From: Solobacterium sp.
GTDB lineage: Bacteria; Bacillota_I; Bacilli_A; Erysipelotrichales; Erysipelotrichaceae
Assembly (NCBI GenBank): GCA_017510405.1
Contig: JAFWNG010000038.1
Location: 1 to 45,211, forward strand
Length of the DNA: 45,211 nucleotides
Reading direction: 5' to 3'
The position numbers and the translations under genes are program-made. Positions 26,480-30,756 of this stretch are shown here, one piece after another. The stretch's first letter is position 1, and every line of letters starts with the position of its first letter. Under the pieces are notes generated by a model. That model saw nothing but the letters and a program-made list of their open reading frames with translations, was not told the origin of the DNA and made no database searches.

Positions 26480-27655
26480 TTAGTGGTGGAACAGACGGAT
26501 CTTTGTGAATGCCATGACCATGTCATAGCGGTCGCATGTTTCGATGACATTGTCATCACGGATGGATCCACCCGGCTCAGCGATGTAGCATACGCCGCTC
26601 TTGTGGGCACGCTCAATGTTGTCGCCGAACGGGAAGAATGCGTCAGAACCGAGGGCAACACCGGTGTTCTGTGCCAGCCATGCCTTCTTTTCTTCTGCGG
26701 TGAAGACGGACGGCTTCTCTGTGAACACTCTTTCCCATGCGCCGTCACGCAGTACATCTTCGTATTCCTCGCCGATGTATACGTCGATCGCATTGTCACG
26801 GTCTGCTCTGCGGATGTCTGCGCGGAACGGCAGTCCCAGTACTTTCGGGGACTGACGCAGCCACCAGTTGTCTGCCTTGTTTCCGGCAAGACGCGTGCAG
26901 TGTACGCGGGACTGCTGGCCGGCACCGACGCCGATCGCCTGTCCGTTCTTTGCGTATGCCACGGAGTTGGACTGTGTGTATTTCAGAGTGATCAGAGCAA
27001 CGATCAGGTCGCGCTTTGCTTCTTCTGTCAGGTTCTTGTTCTTTGTAACGATGTCAGTGAACAGGTCTTCATTGATCTTGAGATCGTTTCTTCCCTGTTC
27101 GAATGTGATGCCGAATACCTGCTTGCGCTCGATCGGATCCGGTACATAATCCGGATCGATCTGAATGACGTTATAGCTGCCTTTGCGCTTTGCCTTCAGG
27201 ATCTCCAGAGCTTCCTCTGTGTAACCCGGTGCGATAACGCCGTCGGATACTTCTTTCTTTAATAAGAGAGCCGTTGCCTTGTCGCAGACATCGCTTAATG
27301 CCGCAAAGTCACCGTAGGAGCTCATGCGGTCCGCACCGCGCGCACGTGCATATGCCGTTGCGATCGGTGTCAGTTCGACGTCGTCTGTGAAATAGATCTG
27401 CTTTTCAACATCGCTCAGCGGGATGGCGACTGCTGCGCCGGCCGGAGAGACATGCTTGAAGCTCGCCGCTGCCGGAAGTCCTGTCGCTTCTTTCAGTTCC
27501 TTAACAAGCTGCCAGCTGTTGAAAGCGTCCATGAAGTTGATATAGCCCGGTCTGCCGCTCAGTACTGTTACCGGCAGTTCACCGTTTTCCATGAAAATGC
27601 GGGACGGCTTCTGGTTCGGGTTACAGCCGTATTTGAGTTCTAATTCTTTTGCCAT
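26480..27655 (-). CDS. purV: AICAR formyltransferase, stand-alone (PurH C-terminal-type)
   Basis: This enzyme formylates AICAR with 10-formyl-THF to give FAICAR (purine step 9). The 391-residue protein corresponds only to the formyltransferase half of PurH; the conserved Lys67-His68 pair (SFKHVSPAG), TQSNSVAYAKNGQAIGVGAGQQSR and the SDAFFPFGDN segment are present. The N-terminal IMP cyclohydrolase domain of bifunctional PurH is absent; that activity is supplied by the PurO gene 10 nt upstream. The symbol follows use for stand-alone AICARFT. Confidence 0.93.
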   Translation of the reverse strand: MAKELELKYGCNPNQKPSRIFMENGELPVTVLSGRPGYINFMDAFNSWQLVKELKEATGLPAAASFKHVSPAGAAVAIPLSDVEKQIYFTDDVELTPIATAYARARGADRMSSYGDFAALSDVCDKATALLLKKEVSDGVIAPGYTEEALEILKAKRKGSYNVIQIDPDYVPDPIERKQVFGITFEQGRNDLKINEDLFTDIVTKNKNLTEEAKRDLIVALITLKYTQSNSVAYAKNGQAIGVGAGQQSRVHCTRLAGNKADNWWLRQSPKVLGLPFRADIRRADRDNAIDVYIGEEYEDVLRDGAWERVFTEKPSVFTAEEKKAWLAQNTGVALGSDAFFPFGDNIERAHKSGVCYIAEPGGSIRDDNVIETCDRYDMVMAFTKIRLFHH

Positions 27656-27665
27656 GTCTTACTCC

Positions 27666-28373
27666 TTATTTCTGATTCTTGTTGAACAGGATCGTTTCTG
27701 TTTCGCCTGTTTCGATATCGATGGAACGTACGAACAGAGAGACTTTGTTGTCTTCGTTCAGTGCTTCCCATAAGTGCTGTGCGAATGCGTCAAGCGGTTC
27801 TTTGACCATCTTGAACAGTGCCGGTTCGCCTTCGAAGGACGGGATCGGATTGCCGTTCTCTCTGTAGGTATGGATCACATGACCGTAACCCGGACGTACA
27901 TTGCTGTATTCAAAGAAATAACGCTGTGCGCTTTCCGGATCACCTTCTGCGCTCTTGAGAATGGAGATCTTATAGCTGTCTTTTTCGATGACTGCGGATA
28001 TGCGCGGCGTGTAGTTCGGACCATCTGGTTCGAATGTACGTGTGCGCAGTGCTTCTTCAAAGCTCTTGCCGTCTTTCATGAAGTCATAGATCGTATCGGT
28101 CTGGTCGCCGTTTGTAACGATCGTCGTATCACCGAGTACTCTGACCGGTGCGTAGATGATCAGGGACGGGTCTACCATTTTGGACGGATCGAATGCTTCG
28201 GTACGGATGCCGTTTCCTTCTTCGACAAAGACACGGTTGCGGCTGTTTGCGCTTCTTCCCATGATGAAGTAGCCGACACGGATCTTCTTTCCGCACGGTG
28301 TGCGTCCGATGACGATGCCGCGGCCCGGATATTCGTTTCCGCGCAGGTAATCAAATAAATCGTATTCTTTCAT
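27666..28373 (-). CDS. purO: IMP cyclohydrolase, PurO type
   Basis: PurO closes the ring of FAICAR to give IMP (purine step 10). The 235-residue protein matches the PurO/IMP_cyclohyd family first known from archaea (GRGIVIGRTPCGKKIRVGYF, GRSANSRNRVFV, GDTTIVTNGDQTDTI, FEPDGPNYTPRISAV). It is not related to the PurH cyclohydrolase domain. It overlaps purN by 4 nt and sits 10 nt upstream of the stand-alone formyltransferase gene, so together they replace purH. Confidence 0.92.
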   Translation of the reverse strand: MKEYDLFDYLRGNEYPGRGIVIGRTPCGKKIRVGYFIMGRSANSRNRVFVEEGNGIRTEAFDPSKMVDPSLIIYAPVRVLGDTTIVTNGDQTDTIYDFMKDGKSFEEALRTRTFEPDGPNYTPRISAVIEKDSYKISILKSAEGDPESAQRYFFEYSNVRPGYGHVIHTYRENGNPIPSFEGEPALFKMVKEPLDAFAQHLWEALNEDNKVSLFVRSIDIETGETETILFNKNQK

Positions 28374-30530: not shown

Positions 30531-30539
30531 AACACCTCC

Positions 30540-30567
30540 AAAAAAACAGCCCGCTGAAAGCGTGCTG
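30540..30567 (-). terminator. Intrinsic terminator (attenuator) just before purE
   Basis: On the minus strand CAGCACGC (30560-30567) and GCGGGCTG (30547-30554) form a stem with one mismatch and a 5-nt loop, followed by a U-run at 30540-30546 that touches the purE ribosome-binding site. A terminator here would stop the operon before its first gene, so it must be conditional. No known purine, ZTP, PRPP or THF riboswitch consensus was recognised upstream. Confidence 0.75.
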
Positions 30568-30570
30568 TAG

Positions 30571-30678
30571 TTAGTTTCTTCCCGTTACTGCCTGTGCTTT
30601 GAAAAAACGATACGGAAAAATCCCATGGCTCTTTCTGTACTTTGCTTCATATGTCTGAACAGATGCGCAATATGCCAT
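30571..30678 (-). CDS. Putative 35-residue leader peptide of the pur operon
   Basis: On the minus strand a small frame starts MAYCASVQTYEAKYRK and ends QAVTGRN-stop. Its ATG is 6 nt after AAAGG, and its TAA lies 3 nt before the stem of the purE-proximal terminator. This spacing would place a ribosome at or near the stop codon where it could affect hairpin formation. The peptide is basic and aromatic (four Tyr, three Phe, several Lys/Arg) with no run of one amino acid. Either a leader peptide for attenuation or a small protein; unverified. Confidence 0.5.
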   Translation of the reverse strand: MAYCASVQTYEAKYRKSHGIFPYRFFKAQAVTGRN

Positions 30679-30725
30679 AGTACACCTTTCCCCGCATACG
30701 GTCTTCCGTCACGGTCAATAACGCT

Positions 30726-30756
30726 ATTATCCTAGCAAAATTTCGTTGAATGTAAA
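30726..30756 (-). promoter_or_regulatory. Probable promoter of the pur operon leader
   Basis: On the minus strand TTTACA (30751-30756) is followed by overlapping -10 candidates: TAGGAT (30729-30734, 16-nt spacing) or GATAAT (30726-30731, 19-nt spacing). Transcription from here would give a leader of about 190 nt before purE, containing the 35-codon frame and the attenuator. Confidence 0.5.

Follow-up and report, generated by a model that had tools for sequence, protein, structure and literature searches.

A short upstream ORF ending at an intrinsic terminator before purE: a candidate ribosome-gated attenuator of purine operons in Erysipelotrichaceae and Ruminococcus

From our analysis of a 45,211-nucleotide stretch of DNA from Solobacterium sp. 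(contig JAFWNG010000038.1; hereafter the window), the leader before purE is rather likely, as judged from its sequence and from its relatives, to be a ribosome-gated transcription attenuator of the pyrBI kind, built from a short upstream ORF (uORF) and an intrinsic terminator (T2). Purine operons are controlled, in the textbook account, by the PurR repressor or by riboswitches, and for pyrimidines the textbooks describe attenuation that is coupled to the ribosome as in pyrBI. A search of the open-licence literature turned up no uORF attenuator described at purE, and a ribosome-gated switch on purine genes has, as far as could be found, apparently not been reported before. The window lies on contig 13 of a 3.27 Mb genome (G000) of a gut bacterium of the Erysipelotrichaceae, and its leader comprises the following features.

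30530-30024, minus strand: purE (TIGR01162), heading an operon of purE-purM-purN-IMP cyclohydrolase-AICAR formyltransferase and further genes
30756..30729, minus strand: sigma70-like promoter TTTACA-16-TAGGAT, called by resemblance, with the extended -10 TGCTAGGATAAT
30689..30683, minus strand: uORF Shine-Dalgarno (SD) site AAAGGTG
30678..30571, minus strand: SD-led uORF of 35 codons, peptide MAYCASVQTYEAKYRKSHGIFPYRFFKAQAVTGRN
30568..30540, minus strand: intrinsic terminator T2, whole, including its T run (predicted fold)
30568..30546, minus strand: T2 stem ACAGCACGC-TTTC-AGCGGGCTGT, 9 pairs with one mismatch, -10.8 kcal/mol, the T run then reaching 30540
30539..30533, minus strand: purE SD site GGAGGTG, adjoining the T2 U run
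30723..30687, minus strand: 5' arm of a long-range helix predicted by folding, CGUUAUUG...GGGGAAA, overlapping the uORF SD
30620..30583, minus strand: 3' arm of the same predicted helix, UUUUUCCGUAUCGUUUUUUC...CAGGCAGUAACG, within the uORF end

The initial annotation had described promoter-like hexamers, an SD-led 35-codon ORF, a terminator, GGAGGTG and purE in this order, and all of them are present on the minus strand where it had placed them; the gap between the uORF stop and the first base of T2, which it gave as 3 nt, measures 2 nt. T2 lies about 110 nt downstream of the uORF start. The promoter hexamers are at chance level as a single match (1 found in the scan, 1.0 expected); they are kept as TTTAC-TTTCA / TAGGATAATAGCG in the nearest relative, the rumen Solobacterium MAG L032, which has the closest purE among the named genomes (91% identical to that of the window), and are also conserved in L112. 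The transcript would start near 30722-30718. Since T2 and purE lie too close together for a promoter to fit in, transcripts from the leader promoter must traverse T2 to reach purE, which supports the earlier contention that a terminator in this position must be conditional. The uORF peptide of the window had no Pfam match. Further into the operon (26480-28373, minus strand), a stand-alone IMP cyclohydrolase-like protein of the archaeal PurO type (PF07826) falls under the PurO equivalog cut-offs, and the gene adjoining it is a PurH relative assigned AICAR formyltransferase only. The PurE of the window is nearer to Ruminococcus PurE (L038-L110; 65-72%) than to that of many Erysipelotrichaceae (about 50-55%), which suggests that the pur operon was transferred, perhaps together with its leader.

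We then performed a comparative analysis of purE loci gathered from named genomes, from the same family, from all 70 genomes of the genus and from the phylum, plus selected stretches, by scoring SD-led ORFs of at least 22 codons that end at a terminator abutting purE against the expectation from dinucleotide shuffles. A uORF ending at T2 was found in 42 of 44 dereplicated non-riboswitch leaders of Erysipelotrichaceae (2.2 expected) and in 24 of 30 leaders of Ruminococcus and related Clostridia (hereafter Ruminococcus-type; 1.0 expected). The end of the stop codon falls within -12 to +16 nt of the first T2 base in 36/44 leaders of the former (median 0.5) and 25/29 of the latter (median 2), and about one fifth of the former, which counts against the model, have a uORF whose end is deep within T2 or past it. 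Manual placement was used for about a dozen of the terminator positions and uORF starts, and in at least one case (L092) it misses by about 10 nt. T2 itself is strong, with a mean z of -4.2 over 40 Erysipelotrichaceae leaders and -4.9 over 26 Ruminococcus-type leaders. Using a closely similar rule, a specificity scan of 697 gene starts at 80 purE loci of named genomes and the window returned 61 genes with a terminator 7-50 nt ahead of the start and 36 with the combination of uORF and terminator, 35 of which are purE and one, in L063, a gene directly upstream of purE. Among the purE leaders of the riboswitch type, none of 23 (15 with a ZTP riboswitch and 8 with a guanine riboswitch only) had the uORF-T2 layout. 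The genes upstream of the leader vary among relatives and are often divergent, so that the leader belongs to purE. By these sequence comparisons, the uORF-T2 layout is genuine and confined to pur operons. In L063 (4509 onward), a uORF and terminator of the purE type stand ahead of a different gene just upstream of purE, which looks as though it had been inserted between the leader and the operon.

The initial annotation had made much of whether the ORF is conserved in relatives, and here the answer is divided: what the relatives keep is an open frame that runs up to the terminator, and not the peptide. Between the window and L032, the length of 35 codons, the start, the stop, the U runs and the terminator are all kept, while the uORFs differ at 14, 12 and 6 sites in codon positions 1, 2 and 3, amounting to 20 nonsynonymous and 2 synonymous codon changes. 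Across sister pairs, the differences at codon positions 1:2:3 were 66:56:67 in Erysipelotrichaceae and 46:43:59 in the Ruminococcus type, and no purifying selection on the peptide was measurable in the sister pairs of either group. This even spread is indicative that translation matters as an act and the peptide does not. As the two other reading frames of the uORF region carry stops at 3-6% of codons and the peptide shows no measurable selection, what is kept is an open frame that reaches the terminator.

A second recurrent property of these leaders is that the two ends of the uORF can pair. In the window, the stretch 30723-30687, which holds the transcript start and the uORF SD, can pair with 30620-30583 at the uORF end, including CGUUAUUG with CAGUAACG, and extensive complementarity is kept in L032 (CGGCCG/CGGCCG, and the SD with a U run) although the 5' arm has a deletion there. 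With arm windows that were fixed after a first look at the data, the true arms of 35 non-redundant Erysipelotrichaceae leaders paired at -22.1 kcal/mol, as against -18.6 kcal/mol when arms were exchanged between leaders; permutations as good as the true mean numbered 0 of 20000 in this set and 81 of 20000 in 17 Ruminococcus-type leaders, and a mid-uORF control in the same matched-arm test gave no signal. Folds of whole leaders likewise held more long-range pairs than their shuffled counterparts (13.3 vs 7.7 in 40 Erysipelotrichaceae leaders; 13.9 vs 7.7 in 23 of the Ruminococcus type). Because true arms beat exchanged arms and long-range pairs are in excess, the Phe-coding U runs near the uORF end appear to mask the SD of the uORF itself. 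Clean two-sided changes in the helix were seen in within-clade alignments of clade C only, and in leaders of types B and D the long-range helix gives way to local structures around the start of the uORF. In L143, L144, L142, L010, L141, L147 and L013, UCCUUU at the transcript start pairs with the uORF SD, and a second terminator-like hairpin (CCGGAAA..UUUCCGG with a U run) lies inside the uORF end. As a general feature, a pause hairpin or internal terminator in the uORF was rejected, being at chance over the Erysipelotrichaceae (mean z -0.16) and clear in L143, L142, L010 and L147.

Known riboswitches show no match to this leader type. The initial annotation had seen no riboswitch consensus, and Rfam covariance models bear it out: no Rfam family, the purine, PRPP and ZTP riboswitches and the T-box included, had a match in the window or its leader, and no riboswitch was matched in this leader type at gathering or relaxed thresholds in the window, leader or relatives, the sole Rfam match among the tested uORF-type relatives being a ZTP riboswitch in L093 several kb away from its purE. 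As positive controls, purine (RF00167) and ZMP/ZTP (RF01750) riboswitches, which are absent from the window, were detected before purE in other relatives, in the same position as the leader described here. No regulator with a PurR_N domain was found in the window's host genome (96.6% complete), while the B. subtilis control was positive. Across the wider family, of 11 leaders in which a guanine riboswitch carries a terminator of its own, 8 have by rule a short uORF and T2 behind it, and in other leaders the uORF is present alone, without a guanine riboswitch, from which it can be argued that the uORF module reads a signal other than guanine. In the tandem leaders L020, L022, L023, L027, L029 and L162, a guanine riboswitch and its own terminator come first, a uORF of 14-20 codons (MVLRRYAIL.., MVFRIAAS..) next and a second terminator, adjoining the purE SD, last; the uORF start codon sits in a small hairpin (CUUA-UGGUCU-UAAG, in others CGAA-UGGUCU-UUCG).

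Probably, then, the leader works as follows. Transcription would begin just upstream of the uORF, and a ribosome that has loaded and follows close behind the polymerase would arrive at the uORF stop during the synthesis of T2. Standing at the stop, it would cover about the first dozen nt of T2, that is its 5' arm, so that the hairpin is blocked and the polymerase enters purE-purM-purN and onward. Should no ribosome be there in time, the uORF end would fold onto the uORF start region and shut out further ribosomes, T2 would form and transcription would end. It is thus the act of translating the uORF that would count and not the peptide made. Since the layout is kept in many relatives while the peptide varies freely, a translating ribosome probably lets the polymerase through; translation of the uORF and termination at T2 are what we infer from the sequences, and the blocking of T2 by a ribosome at the nearby stop from established work. 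Of the two control modes that the initial annotation had put forward, ribosome position on the ORF fits the conserved geometry of stop and T2, and for a metabolite or protein binding the leader there is no evidence in the window.

In E. coli, a terminator with the stop 28 bp ahead of it worked at about 90% and one with the stop moved to 5 bp at <10%; without the RBS this proximity effect was lost, so that translation is required, and terminators beyond about 30 nt from the stop were unaffected (PMC4824070). An E. coli ribosome seldom catches the polymerase in the first 100 bp unless the polymerase pauses, as in pyrBI (PMC4824070), and T2 being at about the same distance, the default outcome is probably termination, with read-through requiring an early-loading ribosome or a slowed polymerase. 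In many low-GC Gram-positives, the polymerase runs ahead of the ribosomes (PMC13323073); together with the E. coli data (PMC4824070), this means that read-through requires slowing of the polymerase, which counts against the model, as does the chance-level signal for a pause hairpin in the Erysipelotrichaceae.

As to the signal, we favour a race between ribosome loading and polymerase speed, in which low purine NTPs would slow the polymerase and turn the operon on; if read-through needs an early ribosome or a slow polymerase, low purine NTPs would be a natural inducer, as low UTP is for pyrBI. Sequence hints of purine-NTP sensing are weak and consist of an A-rich stretch before T2, the base bias ahead of T2 being first U-rich and then A-rich. 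A purine-rich tract as an obvious NTP sensor was rejected, as there is mild A enrichment only (about 0.4) just ahead of T2. General translation capacity is the next candidate after this race, and a ligand acting on the uORF start is possible. Tentatively, and with appreciable doubt, the leader could be a kinetic timer in which the uORF start is open until the uORF end folds back, ribosome loading races the polymerase and low purine NTPs silence T2, receptor-free, alone or behind a guanine riboswitch, in Erysipelotrichaceae and Ruminococcus.

The signal could instead enter through a structured RNA at the uORF start that binds a metabolite or protein and so sets uORF translation and, through it, T2. 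What speaks for such a gate is a 75-nt block around the uORF SD and start (model R1; e.g., L039:4796-4870, also L055, L035, L036, L048, L047, L037, L074, L003, L060, L080, L005 and L007), found in 15/70 genus genomes, once per genome and only before purE. With its motifs GUUUGG..CCRRAC, ACCC-NGUC-GGGU and GAGCUAU/RUGACUC, and no match in Rfam, it is probably a three-way-junction RNA and a candidate ligand- or protein-binding element; type D leaders, moreover, pair UCCUUU with the uORF SD. Two-sided changes were seen in its P1 and P2, the covariation being modest (3 such pairs, equalled by 13/500 shuffles). The block is missing from the window, from most relatives and from all Ruminococcus-type leaders, yet uORF and T2 are still kept in them, so it cannot be the common sensor, and we regard a gate of this sort as unlikely. 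The block was rejected as a general riboswitch, being confined to one genus and absent from the window genome, and its CCGAAC was rejected as a PurBox because arrangement and spacing misfit and PurR is absent.

Attenuation of the trp/his type or by a nascent peptide, whereby a ribosome stalling at particular uORF codons or motifs would shift the balance of antiterminator and terminator, is disfavoured by the sequences and, in our estimate, quite improbable. Phe-Phe and Val-Phe are common near the uORF end, some Ruminococcus uORF peptides resemble one another, and Ruminococcus-type uORFs (e.g., L042, L059, L081, L065) have high contents of Ser (13.5%) and Cys (8.1%), which are enriched in frame relative to the other two frames. 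However, the peptide is without purifying selection, the window uORF lacks a control-codon run for any one amino acid and no codon run is common to the leaders, and a conserved FF/VF motif was rejected, since the Phe codons coincide with the U runs whose pairing partner is the region of the uORF SD. Between the leader and the T2 5' arm, complementarity is also at chance level (mean z -0.01 in 40 Erysipelotrichaceae leaders, -0.43 in 26 of the Ruminococcus type), which gives no sign of an antiterminator of the trp or riboswitch type. Very improbable is the reading of T2 as an inefficient constitutive attenuator, or as a terminator of upstream read-through, with the uORF incidental. The window's upstream gene is indeed co-directional and without its own terminator ahead of the purE promoter, but many relatives keep uORF and T2 behind different or divergent genes, the coincidence of the two is far above chance and pur-specific, and a promoter does not fit between T2 and purE.

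A ribosome-gated attenuator has its closest counterpart in the UTP-sensed pyrBI leader of E. coli, where a leader ORF of similar length ends at or in an intrinsic terminator before a nucleotide-biosynthesis operon, the hairpin is occluded by the ribosome, as proposed here, the peptide is unimportant and an antiterminator is unneeded (PMC4824070). In sequence, the purE leader has the corresponding parts, namely an RBS-led ORF between promoter and terminator, a stop placed so that the ribosome would overlap the hairpin, and no antiterminator; as far as anatomy can say, it resembles pyrBI. Unlike pyrBI, it serves a purine operon in another phylum, is without a demonstrated uridine-rich UTP-pausing tract and adds the predicted start-end helix that would mask the uORF start. 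A uORF upstream of a conditional intrinsic terminator is also found in vmlR, mgtCBR and ilvB-II (PMC9226507, PMC3641672, PMC11109978), and vmlR of B. subtilis demonstrates that a uORF-dependent attenuator works in a Firmicute (PMC9226507). Unlike the purE leader, vmlR and ilvB-II use antiterminator pairing (PMC9226507, PMC11109978), and mgtP and ilvB depend on specific codons (PMC3641672, PMC11109978), neither of which was found here. The tandem attenuators of mgtCBR for two signals (PMC3641672) can be compared with the relatives that carry a guanine riboswitch and a uORF. The fthC uORF candidate of Streptococcus likewise pairs a uORF with a terminator, before a one-carbon/folate gene and with translation initiation proposed as the signal, but it concerns another gene, is genus-restricted and has a shorter ORF with its stop within a second hairpin (PMC11109978); the main text of that uORF survey reports no purE case (PMC11109978).

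If the model is true, ribosome-coupled attenuation extends to the purine synthesis of bacteria that are common in gut and rumen, and PurR is absent from at least one of them. It would place such coupling, at so short an ORF, in a broader group whose polymerase is thought to outrun the ribosomes. The uORF-T2 module would also account for purE leaders that are left blank in riboswitch catalogues. In essence, the kinetic timer, if true, would let purine operons sense their nucleotide supply in the manner of pyrBI, without any receptor.
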